Notes under the pieces: model-generated
Seen by the model: only the letters and a program-made list of their open reading frames with translations
Databases searched by the model: none
Told to the model about the DNA's origin: nothing
Made by a program: the position numbers and the translations under genes
Source: Sulfurimonas sp.
Lineage (GTDB): Bacteria; Campylobacterota; Campylobacteria; Campylobacterales; Sulfurimonadaceae
NCBI RefSeq assembly: GCF_029027405.1
Contig: NZ_CP093396.1
Location: 2,491,497-2,555,496, forward strand
Reading direction: 5' to 3'
DNA length: 64,000 nucleotides
Shown: piece by piece, positions 2,612-24,041 of the stretch
Layout of the letters: the number at the start of each line of letters is the position of its first letter
How positions within the stretch are numbered: position 1 is the stretch's first letter

Positions 2612-3169
2612 TTACTTATCAAACGGAACAACTCGTCCAACCATAGCTTCTAAACTTCTTAATTCATAATCATGATGAGATTGCATCTCTGTCGTGTTTT
2701 TAATTTTATATTTTGTAATCCATACCATCTTATGGTGGGTAGCTTTTAAGTTTTTTGTTTTTAAATGCGCTCCAACTTCAGTATGTCCATAACAAGTACA
2801 AAAATAAGTCTTGCCATCTTCTACAAAAGTATAAGTTCCTGTTCCGCGAATTCCTGCTGTCATATTTGTAGTTACTATGCCGTGATTACCTTTGCTAAAA
2901 ACAGCCATAACTCCGCCATTTATTACATTTAAGATTTTTTTTGAGCCTAGAGTGTCAAGTTTAAATTTTGTATTGCTTTTTGCAAAAAAAGCATCTTTAC
3001 CGATATTAAACTTTACTTTTGAGTTTGCTTTTACTTCAATAGTATCACCATATTTAATCTTAGTGTTTTTGTTAACAACCACACCGTTTACCAATACATC
3101 CCCACTACCTGTTATTCCTTGAGCTTGAAGTAATCCAACCAAACTTAAAAAAAATAAAAACTTCCTCAT
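2612..3169 (-). CDS. Secreted FecR-domain protein
   Basis: 185 residues from the ATG at 3169; AGGAG sits 6 bases upstream, whereas the preceding in-frame GTG would be too close. A signal peptide (MRKFLFFLSLVGLLQAQG) is followed by a FecR-like region: G-S-G-D-V-L-V-N-G, then a KIKYGDTIEVKANSKVKF stretch and a beta-rich part ending near VGAHL. FecR domains occur in anti-sigma regulators, but this copy has no transmembrane segment or sigma partner beside it. Such stand-alone periplasmic FecR proteins are common in Campylobacterota and have no assigned role. A C-x-C pair (FCTCYG, about residue 125) is notable. Function unknown. Confidence 0.75.
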   Translation of the reverse strand: MRKFLFFLSLVGLLQAQGITGSGDVLVNGVVVNKNTKIKYGDTIEVKANSKVKFNIGKDAFFAKSNTKFKLDTLGSKKILNVINGGVMAVFSKGNHGIVTTNMTAGIRGTGTYTFVEDGKTYFCTCYGHTEVGAHLKTKNLKATHHKMVWITKYKIKNTTEMQSHHDYELRSLEAMVGRVVPFDK

Positions 3170-3292
3170 CACACACTCCTTTTAGTAAATTTATATGACA
3201 GATTAATTATAACATAAAACTATGAAAAACAACTGTTTATGAAGTAATTAGCTTAGCTGAAGCTTTAAAGCGATTTTTAATAATTACATCTG

Positions 3293-3298
3293 TATAAT
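3293..3298 (+). promoter_or_regulatory. -10 box of the trxA promoter
   Basis: A perfect TATAAT preceded by TG (extended -10) lies 32 bases upstream of the trxA start, with AAAGGAAA as ribosome site between. This is the only evident promoter for trxA, the membrane protein gene and trxB, which follow at short spacing. No clear -35 is visible, as is usual for sigma-70 promoters in this phylum. Confidence 0.65.
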
Positions 3299-3330
3299 GT
3301 CTTACATATTAATTATAAAAGGAAATTGTA

Positions 3331-3651
3331 ATGGGAAAATATTTAGAACTAACTAGCACAGATTTTGAAGCAACTTTAAGCGAAGGTGTATCTTTAGTAG
3401 ACTTTTGGGCGCCATGGTGTGGACCTTGTCGTATGATAGCTCCAGTTATCGAAGAATTAGCTGAAGATTTTGATGGAAAAGCTAAAATCTGCAAAGTAAA
3501 TACTGATGAAGAGCAAGATATTGCTGTTAAATTTGGTATTCGTTCTATCCCAACTATCATGTTCTTCAAAAATGGTGAGATGGTTGATCAAGTTGTTGGA
3601 GCACAGTCTAAACAAGCTCTAGCAGAAAAAATAGACGCTCTTCTAGCGTAA
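3331..3651 (+). CDS. trxA: Thioredoxin
   Basis: 106 residues, the standard length. The active site is W-C-G-P-C (C30 and C33) and the cis-proline segment is RSIPTIMFF. It reduces protein disulfides in the cytoplasm, using electrons from thioredoxin reductase, whose gene is two places downstream. Good AAAGGAAA ribosome site and a TATAAT promoter. Nothing unusual in the sequence itself; the odd feature is the extra gene between trxA and trxB. Confidence 0.97.
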   Translation: MGKYLELTSTDFEATLSEGVSLVDFWAPWCGPCRMIAPVIEELAEDFDGKAKICKVNTDEEQDIAVKFGIRSIPTIMFFKNGEMVDQVVGAQSKQALAEKIDALLA

Positions 3652-3669
3652 TTAAAGCGAAGCTGTATA

Positions 3670-4158
3670 ATGGCAAAAAAAGGAGGTAAAAGCCTTCTTT
3701 CGTTATCTACGCTATTAGCTTCATTCTTTGGCTCTGCTATGATAGCAGTTGCCTTTGCATACTTCAACTATAAATTTTCAGAGTATAAGTTTATTGATTT
3801 TAATGAATGGATTTTTTATGAAAAAAAAGCTATTTTTAAACCAAGTGCCCAAAAATATATAGTAGTTTTTTATAGTTCAAGAGCTACAAATACTGCCCAA
3901 CTTTTAGCTAAAACCGATTTAAATCTTCCAATATTAGCTATTGACTACTACAACGAAAGCTTCCCAAACTCTAAAAATACAACTTTTTTAAGAAGTGGTA
4001 CAAAAAATTCTCTCTCATTTATACAGAGATTTAACATATACGAATCCCCCTGCATCTTTTTTATAAAGAAATCAAAAGATACTCTTTATAAACAAGATAG
4101 TATGATTCGTAAACTAGATAATTTAAAAGAATTATCTGAGCAAGTAAAAACTTTATAA
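3670..4158 (+). CDS. Membrane-anchored thioredoxin-like protein without CxxC
   Basis: 162 residues, start ATG at 3670. An N-terminal hydrophobic segment (about residues 10-32) suggests an anchor with the rest outside. The remainder has the pattern of a thioredoxin fold: IVVFYSSRATNTAQLL where the redox strand and active-site helix would be, and YESPCIFFIKK where the cis-proline strand would be. The active-site C-x-x-C is missing; a single Cys precedes the final strand. It lies 18 bases after trxA and 14 before trxB, so it is almost certainly co-transcribed with the thioredoxin system. No function is known to me; the Trx-fold reading is inference from pattern. TATAAT overlaps the start codon and may be coincidental. 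Confidence 0.6.
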   Translation: MAKKGGKSLLSLSTLLASFFGSAMIAVAFAYFNYKFSEYKFIDFNEWIFYEKKAIFKPSAQKYIVVFYSSRATNTAQLLAKTDLNLPILAIDYYNESFPNSKNTTFLRSGTKNSLSFIQRFNIYESPCIFFIKKSKDTLYKQDSMIRKLDNLKELSEQVKTL

Positions 4159-4172
4159 ACTAAGGAAAGACA

Positions 4173-5117
4173 ATGATATTAGATTGTGCAATTATTGGTG
4201 GCGGACCTGCTGGACTTACTGCTGGACTATACACTACTCGTGGTGGTTTAGAAAATGTTACAATGTTTGAAAAAGGTATGCCTGGTGGACAAATTACTTT
4301 AAGTTCTGAAATAGAAAACTATCCTGGAGTAACTGGTGAAATCACAGGAATGGATTTGATGATGCCGTGGCCTGAACAATGTCAAAAATTTGGTCTTAAA
4401 CATGAGATGGTTGAAGTTATAAAAGTAAGTAAAGATGGTGATATATTTACAATTCATAAAGGTGACGGAACTACACAAGAAGCTCATAGTGTTATAGTAG
4501 GTACTGGTTCTCGTCCTCGCCGTGCAGGTTTTGCAGGAGAAGATGAATTTTTTGGTCGTGGAGTTAGTACTTGTGCTACTTGTGATGGTTTCTTTTACAA
4601 AGGCAAAGAAGTTGCAGTTATTGGTGGTGGAGACACAGCTTTAGAAGAAGCTCTTTATCTTGCTAAGATTTGTACAAAAGTTTATTTAATTCACAGAAGA
4701 GATGAATTTCGTTCTGCTCCAAATACTGTTGATAGACTAAAAAGAACTGAAAATATAGAACTTGTTTTAAACTCTGTTCCTGATGAGGTTTATGGTGACA
4801 ACATGGGTGTTACAGGTATTCGTGTTAAAAACAAAGATGGAAAACTTCGTGATATTGAAGTTCCAGGTGTTTTTACTTTTGTTGGTAATGATGTAAACAA
4901 TCAAACACTTATGCAAGAAAATGGCGAGTTTTTATGTGATATGAATGCAAAAGGCGAAGTTATTGTTAACATAAGTATGGCAACTTCACTTGAAGGACTT
5001 TATGCAACTGGTGACATGCGTATCGCAGCTCCAAAACAAGTTGTAAGTGCAGCTGGAGATGGTGCTGTTGCAGCTCTTCAAGTTATCTCTTTCGTTGATG
5101 AAAAACTAAACGGTTAA
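4173..5117 (+). CDS. trxB: Thioredoxin reductase
   Basis: 314 residues. An N-terminal FAD-binding GGGPAG (about residues 9-14), the redox-active C-A-T-C (C134 and C137), the NADPH-binding GGGDTA (about 151-156) and a C-terminal ATGDMR FAD motif are all present in the expected order. It passes electrons from NADPH through FAD to thioredoxin. It follows the membrane thioredoxin-like gene by 14 bases, with TAAGGA as the ribosome site, and precedes dapB by 11 bases, so these genes probably form one transcript. Confidence 0.96.
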   Translation: MILDCAIIGGGPAGLTAGLYTTRGGLENVTMFEKGMPGGQITLSSEIENYPGVTGEITGMDLMMPWPEQCQKFGLKHEMVEVIKVSKDGDIFTIHKGDGTTQEAHSVIVGTGSRPRRAGFAGEDEFFGRGVSTCATCDGFFYKGKEVAVIGGGDTALEEALYLAKICTKVYLIHRRDEFRSAPNTVDRLKRTENIELVLNSVPDEVYGDNMGVTGIRVKNKDGKLRDIEVPGVFTFVGNDVNNQTLMQENGEFLCDMNAKGEVIVNISMATSLEGLYATGDMRIAAPKQVVSAAGDGAVAALQVISFVDEKLNG

Positions 5118-5128
5118 AAAGGCAAAAA

Positions 5129-5896
5129 ATGATTAAAGTTGGTGTATTTGGCGCAAATGGCAGAGTAGGACAACTTATTATTGATGATTTAAAAGATACT
5201 CAAGATATAAGTTTAAGTAGTGTGTTTGTAAGAAACGAGTTGAATTTTTCTATTGATCCGTCTGTTTTGGTATCTACAAATATAAACTCATTTTTTGATG
5301 CTTGTGACATTGTTATAGATTTTTCTCTTCCTGAGGCTTGTGAAGCACTTTTAGAAGCAGCTATAAAAAATCCTAAACCTTTAGTTATTGGCACAACTGG
5401 CTTAAGTGCACACCAACTTAATCTTTTAAAACAAGCAAGTGAGATTATGCCTATATTGTATGCTACGAATATGTCTTTAGGTGTAGCATTACTAAACAAA
5501 TTAGTTTATCAAGCATCTGCAGCTCTTAAAGGTTTTAATATAGAAATAGTTGAAATGCATCATAAACATAAAAAAGATGCTCCTAGCGGAACTGCTCTTA
5601 CTCTTGGAGAATCTGCTGCTAATGGTCGCGGACTTGGTTTAAATAAGGTTAGAGTAAGTGGCAGAGATGGAAATATTGGCGAGAGAACTGAAGATGAAAT
5701 AGCTGTGATGGCTCTTAGAGGTGGAGATATTGTAGGAAAACACACTGTTGGTTTTTACAATGATGGTGAATTTATAGAGTTAAATCATACAGCAACTTCA
5801 AGAAATACTTTTAGTAAAGGTGCTATTCGTGCAGGAACTTGGCTAGCTAATAAAAAAGCTGGACTCTACTCAATAAGTGATTGCCTAGAGCTTTAA
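5129..5896 (+). CDS. dapB: 4-hydroxy-tetrahydrodipicolinate reductase
   Basis: 255 residues. The N-terminal dinucleotide-binding motif is GVFGANGRVG, a GTTGLS segment follows, and the catalytic region is EMHHKHKKDAPSGTAL, which carries the conserved His and Lys. It catalyses the NAD(P)H-dependent step of the lysine/meso-diaminopimelate pathway, supplying both lysine and the peptidoglycan cross-linking residue; the MurE encoded in this window uses that product. Spacing of 11 bases after trxB suggests read-through from the trx promoter. Confidence 0.95.
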   Translation: MIKVGVFGANGRVGQLIIDDLKDTQDISLSSVFVRNELNFSIDPSVLVSTNINSFFDACDIVIDFSLPEACEALLEAAIKNPKPLVIGTTGLSAHQLNLLKQASEIMPILYATNMSLGVALLNKLVYQASAALKGFNIEIVEMHHKHKKDAPSGTALTLGESAANGRGLGLNKVRVSGRDGNIGERTEDEIAVMALRGGDIVGKHTVGFYNDGEFIELNHTATSRNTFSKGAIRAGTWLANKKAGLYSISDCLEL

Positions 5897-5966: not shown

Positions 5967-7322
5967 TTGAGAGAAGATGTTAACGAAAAATGTGCAGTTG
6001 TAGGAATTTTTGGACATGAAGAAGCTTCTAAACTAGCTTACTTCTCTCTTCACGCACTCCAACATCGGGGACAAGAAGCTGCGGGAATTAGTTCTTCAGA
6101 TGGAAAAAAACTTCGTACTATTAAAAAACGCGGTTTAGTAATGCGTGTTTTTGATGAAGCTAAGTTAAAAACTTTAAGTGGTTCTAGTGCGATTGGTCAT
6201 ACTCGTTATTCAACTGCTGGTGAGGATTCAATTCTAGATGCTCAACCAGTATTTGCCAGATATGACTTAGGTGAAATGGCGATAGTTCACAACGGTAACC
6301 TCACAAATGCGGAAGAAGTTAGAAATAACCTTATAAAAAAAGGTGCAATTTTTCAAACTTTTATGGATACAGAAAATCTAATACATCTAATAGCAAAAAG
6401 TGAAGAAGAAAAACTTACTCCTAGGATAATAGATGCTGTTAAAAAAATAGAGGGTGCTTTCTCTTTAGTTTTTTTAAGTAGAACAAAAATGTTTGCTATG
6501 CGTGATCGTTTTGGGTTTCGTCCACTTAGTCTTGGACGACTACCAAATGGTGGCTATATAGTAGCAAGTGAAACCTGTGCCTTTGACCTTGTAAGTGCCG
6601 AGTTTGTTAGGGATATTGAGCCAGGAGAACTTCTTATATTTAAAGAGGGACGAGAACCAAAAAGTATTAAAATATTTGAACCTACCCCAAAACATTGTAT
6701 TTTTGAGTATGTATATTTTGCAAGACCAGATTCTTTAGTTTATGGTCAGTCAGTTTATCAGATAAGAAAAAATATGGGAAAAGAACTCGCAAAGATAAGG
6801 CCTGTTGAAGCAGACTTGGTCGTACCTGTTCCTGATGGAGGAGTTCCCTCTGCTATTGGTTATGCCCAAGAGAGTGGTATTCCCTATGAAATGGGAATTA
6901 TGAGAAACCATTATATTGGTCGTACATTTATAGAACCTACACAAGAAATGCGTGATTTAAAAGTAAAAATGAAACTCTCTCCTATGACAGATATCATAAA
7001 AGGGAAAAAAGTTATAGTTGTTGATGATTCTATCGTTCGTGGAACTACATCAAGACGAATTATAAGAATGTTAAAAGAAGCAGGAGCGAGTGAAGTACAT
7101 ATGCGTGTATCATCTCCTCCCACAACTGACCCTTGTTACTATGGCGTAGATACTCCAAATAAGGATAAACTAATAGCTGCGAATATGACACAAGATGAAA
7201 TATGTAAATATATTGAAGCTGATTCATTGGCTTATTTAGACGAAAAATCTCTACTCAGAAGCGTAAATACAAAAAAAGACAATTACTGTACTGCTTGTTT
7301 TACAGGAAAGTATATAGTTTAA
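5967..7322 (+). CDS. purF: Amidophosphoribosyltransferase, Fe-S type
   Basis: 451 residues from a TTG start with AAGGAAAA just upstream. After a short propeptide (MREDVNEK) comes the glutaminase nucleophile Cys9 in CAVVGIFG, so N-terminal cleavage is expected. The C-terminal half is a phosphoribosyltransferase domain with the PRPP loop VIVVDDSIVRGTTS. Cysteines at the positions of the Bacillus-type [4Fe-4S] cluster are present (HCIFEYVYF, DPCYYGVD and C-x-x-C in CTACFTG). It makes phosphoribosylamine from PRPP and glutamine, the first step of purine synthesis. The stop overlaps the start of the next gene by one base (TAATG). Confidence 0.96.
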   Translation: MREDVNEKCAVVGIFGHEEASKLAYFSLHALQHRGQEAAGISSSDGKKLRTIKKRGLVMRVFDEAKLKTLSGSSAIGHTRYSTAGEDSILDAQPVFARYDLGEMAIVHNGNLTNAEEVRNNLIKKGAIFQTFMDTENLIHLIAKSEEEKLTPRIIDAVKKIEGAFSLVFLSRTKMFAMRDRFGFRPLSLGRLPNGGYIVASETCAFDLVSAEFVRDIEPGELLIFKEGREPKSIKIFEPTPKHCIFEYVYFARPDSLVYGQSVYQIRKNMGKELAKIRPVEADLVVPVPDGGVPSAIGYAQESGIPYEMGIMRNHYIGRTFIEPTQEMRDLKVKMKLSPMTDIIKGKKVIVVDDSIVRGTTSRRIIRMLKEAGASEVHMRVSSPPTTDPCYYGVDTPNKDKLIAANMTQDEICKYIEADSLAYLDEKSLLRSVNTKKDNYCTACFTGKYIV

Positions 7323-23999: not shown

Positions 24000-24041
24000 A
24001 AAGGAACAAAGTCCCTTTACTCCGCTTGCACCGCTGTGGTG
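24000..24041 (-). other. Structured leader segment between ispA and tkt
   Basis: Two further inverted repeats precede the terminator hairpin: AAAGGAAC (24000-24007) with GTCCCTTT (24011-24018), 8 pairs with one G-T, and CACC/GGTG at 24029-24041. Together with the hairpin at 23970 they fill the 110-base gap. The gap is GC-richer than its surroundings. Confidence 0.4.

Follow-up and report, generated by a model that had tools for sequence, protein, structure and literature searches.

The window, i.e., the whole analysed stretch of 64,000 nucleotides from a Sulfurimonas genome of 2.83 Mb in a single contig, contains a trxA–trxB locus with a third gene, designated X in what follows, lying between the two. 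A gene for an anchored thioredoxin-like protein had been claimed for this place in an earlier note, and the claim was borne out by the open reading frame (162 aa, ATG start, trxA upstream and trxB downstream) and by the family-model matches of its neighbors. The genes and the features recognized within X are the following:

3331..3651, forward strand: trxA, thioredoxin with CGPC (PF00085, E 4e-33; TIGR01068, above cut-off)
3670..4158, forward strand: gene X, encoding a single-pass membrane protein whose predicted Trx-fold domain has no CxxC (ORF, family matches, dN/dS, models)
3703..3783, forward strand: predicted transmembrane helix, residues 12–38 (model helix H12-38; Kyte-Doolittle)
3790..4152, forward strand: predicted thioredoxin-fold domain, residues 41–161, probably periplasmic (order of secondary structure in the model, Foldseek/VIA, net charge)
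3874..3897, forward strand: degenerate active-site stretch SSRATNTA, residues 69–76, in the CxxC slot (without Cys there in 113 homologues)
4048..4053, forward strand: Pro127-Cys128, cis-Pro position and the only Cys of the window protein (Pro in 113/113, Cys in 6/113)
4075..4106, forward strand: DNA element AAAGATACTCTTTATAAACAAGATAGTATGAT, codons 136–146 of X, with a core 22-mer at 4085–4106 (synonymous conservation, retention in pseudogenes)
4101..4106, forward strand: TATGAT, candidate -10 hexamer, 66 nt upstream of trxB (TAYNAT in 15 X-less or broken loci)
4173..5117, forward strand: trxB, thioredoxin-disulfide reductase (TIGR01292, E 9e-104, above cut-off)

Downstream of trxB two further ORFs follow (5129–5896 and 5967–7322), which we take to be dapB and purF, respectively. 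On the reverse strand, the ORF at 2612–3172 has a start resembling a signal sequence and contains a C-T-C-Y motif; to us it resembles a FecR-type domain.

The X protein of the window had no match to the Pfam and NCBIfam models at E ≤ 10. A scan of 17 members of the X family against family models returned OST3/OST6 in four of them (best E 7e-4) and Thioredoxin_2 in two (best 0.013), the other matches being weak and confined to one or two members each. The closest named homologues, from 87% identity downward, belong to Sulfurimonas. No paper on the gene was found in searches of openly available literature.

The Trx fold and the membrane anchor suggested for this protein from its sequence are both supported by structure prediction and by fold searches with Foldseek and VIA. 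In the first model (mean pLDDT 80.5, pTM 0.69) residues 41–161 form a predicted thioredoxin fold with beta-alpha-beta and beta-beta-alpha halves on a central sheet, preceded by the N-terminal helix, whose stretch 15–33 has a mean Kyte-Doolittle value of 1.54 over 113 X homologues. The second model, made from a homologue 49% identical, has the same order of elements and stops before the last helix; it shares most alignment rows with the first and is therefore not independent of it. Searched against the PDB with Foldseek, the first model matched Trx-fold proteins with a probability of up to 1.00, the best being FetE of Campylobacter jejuni (E 4e-4), and the matches included CcmG (2b1k), StoA, TlpA (4txv, 4txo) and Sco types. 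VIA gave Z scores of 9.1–10.6 among the 50 entries listed, over residues of about 37–162, with peroxiredoxin, DsbE, ResA and Sco types included. For the second model there was no Foldseek match below E 0.001, and most of the 50 matches listed were again Trx-fold proteins. The TM-scores in the listed matches, normalised by the query, were 0.25–0.46. An hhalign comparison of the X and TrxA profiles covered 28 columns with a probability of 7%, aligning Pro127 of X with the cis-proline of TrxA, Pro74; this match is so weak that the kinship of X with the thioredoxins rests on the predicted fold. A profile search of solved structures produced two weak matches, to TmcAL (E 0.5) and to a thioredoxin (E 2.1; profile positions 94–137).

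The absence of a CxxC, where the earlier note had pointed to an S-S-R-A-T-N segment, was confirmed and extends to the homologues: neither CxxC nor CxxxC occurs in any of the 113 distinct X homologues, a set that includes one frameshifted copy (L071). In the window protein the cysteine-free stretch SSRATNTA comes after strand 62–68, and in the homologues this slot is variable except for Ser69 (108/113) and Ser70 (113/113). Cysteine is rare altogether, with none in 99 homologues, one in 10 and two or more in four. The single cysteine that had been seen before the last strand does exist in the window protein, only its place is the first residue of the last-but-one strand (128–134), directly after Pro127, and it is not a feature of the family (6/113). 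Pro127, at the presumed cis-proline position before the fourth strand of the fold, is invariant in all 113 homologues. As read from the alignment, the groove proline is kept and the cysteines are gone in the X family. A separate observation concerns the distant X homologues of family f14 (L130 ~1492, L131 ~1472, L132 ~1990, reverse strand), in which a Cys-Cys pair precedes the transmembrane segment, on what would be the cytoplasmic side.

The orientation in the membrane was judged from the charges flanking the helix. The net charge before the helix exceeded that after it in 101 of the 113 homologues, was equal in 10 and lower in two, the means being +2.9 and +0.5, respectively. Counts of K+R alone are nearly even on the two sides (means 3.07 and 2.77), so that most of the bias is due to acidic residues that follow the helix. 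This is modest evidence that the domain of X is probably periplasmic.

Matches to X were present in 129 of the 200 genomes of the family and in 14 of its 18 genera (E ≤ 0.001, remnants included). At E ≤ 0.01, with remnants and a few weak hits included, they extended to 162 of the 348 genomes and 44 of the 86 genera of the order, where 42 genera is the safer number, as g41 and g59 rest solely on weak hits (G302, G382, G295). These three genomes were dropped from the X family, their matches being weak and their trx loci without X. A phylum-wide draw had matches in 106 of 298 genomes, every one from the same order; the number of genomes from outside the order is not given for this draw, and absence of X elsewhere is not claimed. 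Where X is intact, its codons 1–133 are under purifying selection, with a median dN/dS of 0.17 (93 pairs with dS 0.1–1).

Among the first 60 loci, a set with some places present under two records, X was full length and flanked upstream by trxA and downstream by trxB in 57, the remaining three being contig ends (L020, L029) and a remnant (L030). In the 38 usable distant loci, in some of which the contig breaks off within X, trxA stood beside X in all 38 and trxB was present as well in 33. The other five are two contig ends (L138, L142), a locus in which no trxB match is seen in the roughly 300 nt between X and the end of the contig (L123) and two loci, L113 and L127, in which X adjoins trxA and other genes take the place of trxB behind it. 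These counts suggest a closer tie of X to trxA than to trxB.

In 30 genomes with no, weak or partial X match, trxA was sought and matched in 29, and 30 loci were fetched. The adjacency of trxA and trxB that had been claimed for this group was found in 27 of these 30 loci, trxB following closely downstream with gaps of 80–311 nt; among the three loci without a nearby trxB (L176, L177, L178) are a weak trxA-like match and the second trxA copy of one genome. The adjacency thus stood where X is missing. X itself is widespread, occurring in 101 of 137 distinct trxA–trxB loci collected, which is not a frequency, as loci were picked partly because X was found there. Of the checks recommended in the earlier note, structure prediction returned a Trx fold and the survey of other trxA–trxB loci found the gene there, so that neither of the results named as refuting was obtained, though many such loci are without X. 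On a quick TrxB tree of the same 137 loci (101 with X and 36 without, broken or partial copies being counted as without), the presence and absence of X required 17 state changes, or at least seven if only the starred branches are trusted. Together with the close trxA–trxB spacing in X-less loci this means that X is dispensable, and since pseudogene remnants of X are present in some loci, at least part of the state changes were losses.

A point missed by the earlier note is that the 3' end of X is constrained at the DNA level. Over 60 distinct sequences sharing at least 65% identity with the X of the window (1770 pairs), synonymous differences amounted to pS 0.134 in codons 136–146 versus 0.658 in codons 1–133, and Tyr140, Gln142 and Ser144 each had a single codon in all 60. 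The exact core, TTTATAAACAAGATAGTATNAT, was found in 98 of the 188 loci collected, repeats of one place included. Of the 125 loci with intact X, 85 had the 23-nt element with at most two mismatches and 40 had three or more, distant families being among the latter; there YKQDS is kept as protein with other codons and the DNA element is not kept, a point against the control-site reading given below.

Among 38 loci without an intact X, 15 retained the 23-nt element within two mismatches and the other 23 retained it less well; the best of 1140 shuffles had five mismatches. These 15 loci were selected for at most two mismatches, so that their high match is partly by construction, and they are related rather than 15 independent cases: L030 and L068 represent one place, L071 is a frameshifted copy of full length, and there are close kin among the others. 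What the selection did not prescribe was where the mismatches fall. In the 14 distinct broken loci, 15 mismatches occupied three positions only and the other 20 positions matched in 14 of 14; 13 of the 15 lay on the second and third bases of the Met145 codon, where TATGAT drifted to TATCAT, TACTAT or TACCAT, and two on the last base of the 23-mer. Furthermore, AAAGA, located 10 to 6 nt before the element and outside the selection, matched in 69 of 70 cells of the broken loci, while flank positions conserved to at least 90% in intact genes matched at 0.75 farther upstream and 0.76 downstream. It follows from the clustering and from the AAAGA match that AAAGA-N5-TTTATAAACAAGATAGTANNAT is held while the Met codon drifts.

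The pattern TAYNAT, which is what a -10 hexamer would need, was kept in all 15 X-less or broken loci that retain the element, at 43–66 nt before trxB in 14 of them and at 180 nt in L062, which has an insert. Further X-less loci carry GTATGATA at 25–37 nt before trxB (L156, L161, L170) or TTGTATAAT at 27–29 nt before it (L164, L167, L172). Based on this pattern, we take the frozen bases in X as a putative promoter or control site of trxB. Literature searches returned nothing relevant on promoters embedded in decaying genes and, for the trxA–trxB start sites in Helicobacter, only a clostridial paper. As a separate observation, a REP-like palindromic insert with cores resembling GTGACCACAGCGGTCCAAGCGG lies between X and trxB in L001 (5490–5660), L002, L017, L032, L055 and L070; in L001 and L017 this insert is flanked by two copies of the 3' end of X, which form a 44-nt direct repeat (93 and 89% identity, respectively). 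The window itself has one copy of the REP-like core with two mismatches at 24022–24041 on the reverse strand, with none in 100 shuffles, and a different, repeat-rich insert separates X from trxB in L027 and L054.

The frozen bases might instead be a regulator-binding or RNA-processing site rather than a simple promoter, which would be compatible with any of the readings of the protein. The invariance reaches far above the TATGAT hexamer, spanning AAAGA and TTTATAAACAAGATAGTA, more than a -10 box needs, and a sigma-70 scan, which demands a -35 hexamer too, found none for a trxB promoter inside X and did not pick the TATGAT site (5 hits in the region versus 5.2 expected); in this group, -35 boxes are described as weak or lacking. 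The length of the invariant part and the missing -35 thus leave room for a regulator site. However, TAYNAT remains at its distance before trxB in the broken loci and the drifting bases are the ones that a -10 box tolerates. An RNA element is not indicated either, as the fold of the stretch did not differ from shuffles (z -0.27) and no Rfam match was obtained at E ≤ 1 within 3200–5200. The 25-mer of the element occurs only once in the genome, even when up to three mismatches are allowed, which argues against a regulon site. A regulator or RNA site is accordingly regarded as possible, with chances well short of even. Two candidates of this kind were dropped: AAAGAGWCTCTTT as a palindromic operator, because T, G, C and A all occur at its sixth base among the loci listed, and a regulon site based on a looser pattern, which at up to two mismatches had 12 forward and 14 reverse occurrences versus 6 and 8 for the reversed control, the trxB site being the only one without a mismatch.

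For the protein, the docking of thioredoxin at the membrane, proposed in the earlier note, would agree with the linkage of X to trxA even where trxB is replaced by other genes. It is nevertheless unlikely: the net charge, modest as this evidence is with K+R nearly even, suggests a domain outside in 101 of the 113 homologues and thus away from the cytoplasmic TrxA, many genomes retain trxA and trxB without X, and TlpA-type proteins, according to a survey of Dsb proteins in Epsilonproteobacteria, have a periplasmic Trx domain (PMC4460558), an architecture that the probable topology of X fits. Slightly more unlikely is a protein of little function in a locus retained chiefly because of the DNA element that controls trxB. 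Such a locus would account for the decay of X beside a remaining element and for the 17 state changes, but not for the low dN/dS outside the element or the residues that are invariant across distant families, both of which show that the protein is under selection in loci with an intact X. Redox activity of X as a one-cysteine enzyme in this species, through Cys128 beside the cis-proline, is very unlikely. This cysteine does follow Pro127 near the usual Trx active site and recurs there in six of the 113 homologues; in the others, however, position 128 is occupied by Ser (81), Thr (11), Val (9), Ala (3), Ile (2) or Arg (1), and most of the family has no Cys at all. The remaining suggestion of the earlier note, that X may bind a redox partner rather than catalyse, fits the invariant Pro127 and the missing cysteines. 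From this we infer that a redox-dead binding role of the TlpA/ResA/Sco kind would fit X better than TrxA docking.

The reading we prefer, to which an even chance is given, combines a non-catalytic, periplasm-facing Trx-fold binding subunit with a promoter or control site of trxB in the 3' end of its gene. X would be held in the inner membrane by one N-terminal helix, with a Trx-fold domain of TlpA/ResA/Sco shape facing the periplasm, and would have lost the catalytic cysteines while retaining the cis-proline position. The groove, which is the substrate site in other thioredoxins, may then hold a segment of a partner protein without redox chemistry, and the strongly conserved helix may serve for assembly in the membrane. 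X would be co-transcribed with trxA, in second place, and its last codons would carry the site that drives or controls trxB; it is proposed that the bases of the element outlast the decayed protein because they serve in this function.

A redox-dead Trx fold kept across the order in a thioredoxin locus suggests an unnamed binding role in the envelope. The locus can also be viewed as a natural experiment with dual-use DNA, in which the protein reading was lost in some lineages and the regulatory reading appears to stay. In a broader and still doubtful interpretation, X would represent an undescribed order-wide family, without CxxC, mostly free of Cys, facing the periplasm and inherited with trxA, that connects a complex of the envelope with thiol control in the cytoplasm, with a trxB control site in its 3' end and, in one family, regulatory DNA outliving the protein.

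Among the known systems, the best Foldseek match, FetE of C. jejuni (PDB 8t4c), is likewise a membrane-associated Trx-fold protein; it has a CPSC motif and a lipobox and is able to reduce insulin (PMC10783030). X differs from it in having a transmembrane helix and no CxxC. In the Dsb survey a truncated C. jejuni DsbA2 without CxxC is mentioned, and trxA, trxB and Sulfurimonas do not occur in its text (PMC4460558). With the TlpA/ResA/CcmG group X shares, by prediction, the N-terminal anchor followed by a Trx fold, with VIA Z scores of 9.7 to ResA (1su9) and 10.2 to a DsbE-like protein (3gl3). These thioredoxins have a catalytic CxxC, which is absent in X. The Sco1/ScoI proteins (PDB 6n5u, 2ggt) are similar in their Trx-fold domain (Z 10.2 and 9.8, respectively), but Sco binds copper via CxxxC and His, and the former motif is found in none of the 113 X homologues. 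A possible parallel is offered by the non-catalytic b domains of PDI, in which the Trx fold is kept for binding and the cysteines are lost; these are eukaryotic parts of multi-domain proteins. Since X lacks the CxxC of the catalytic families considered, we class it as a separate Trx-fold family rather than as a thioredoxin.
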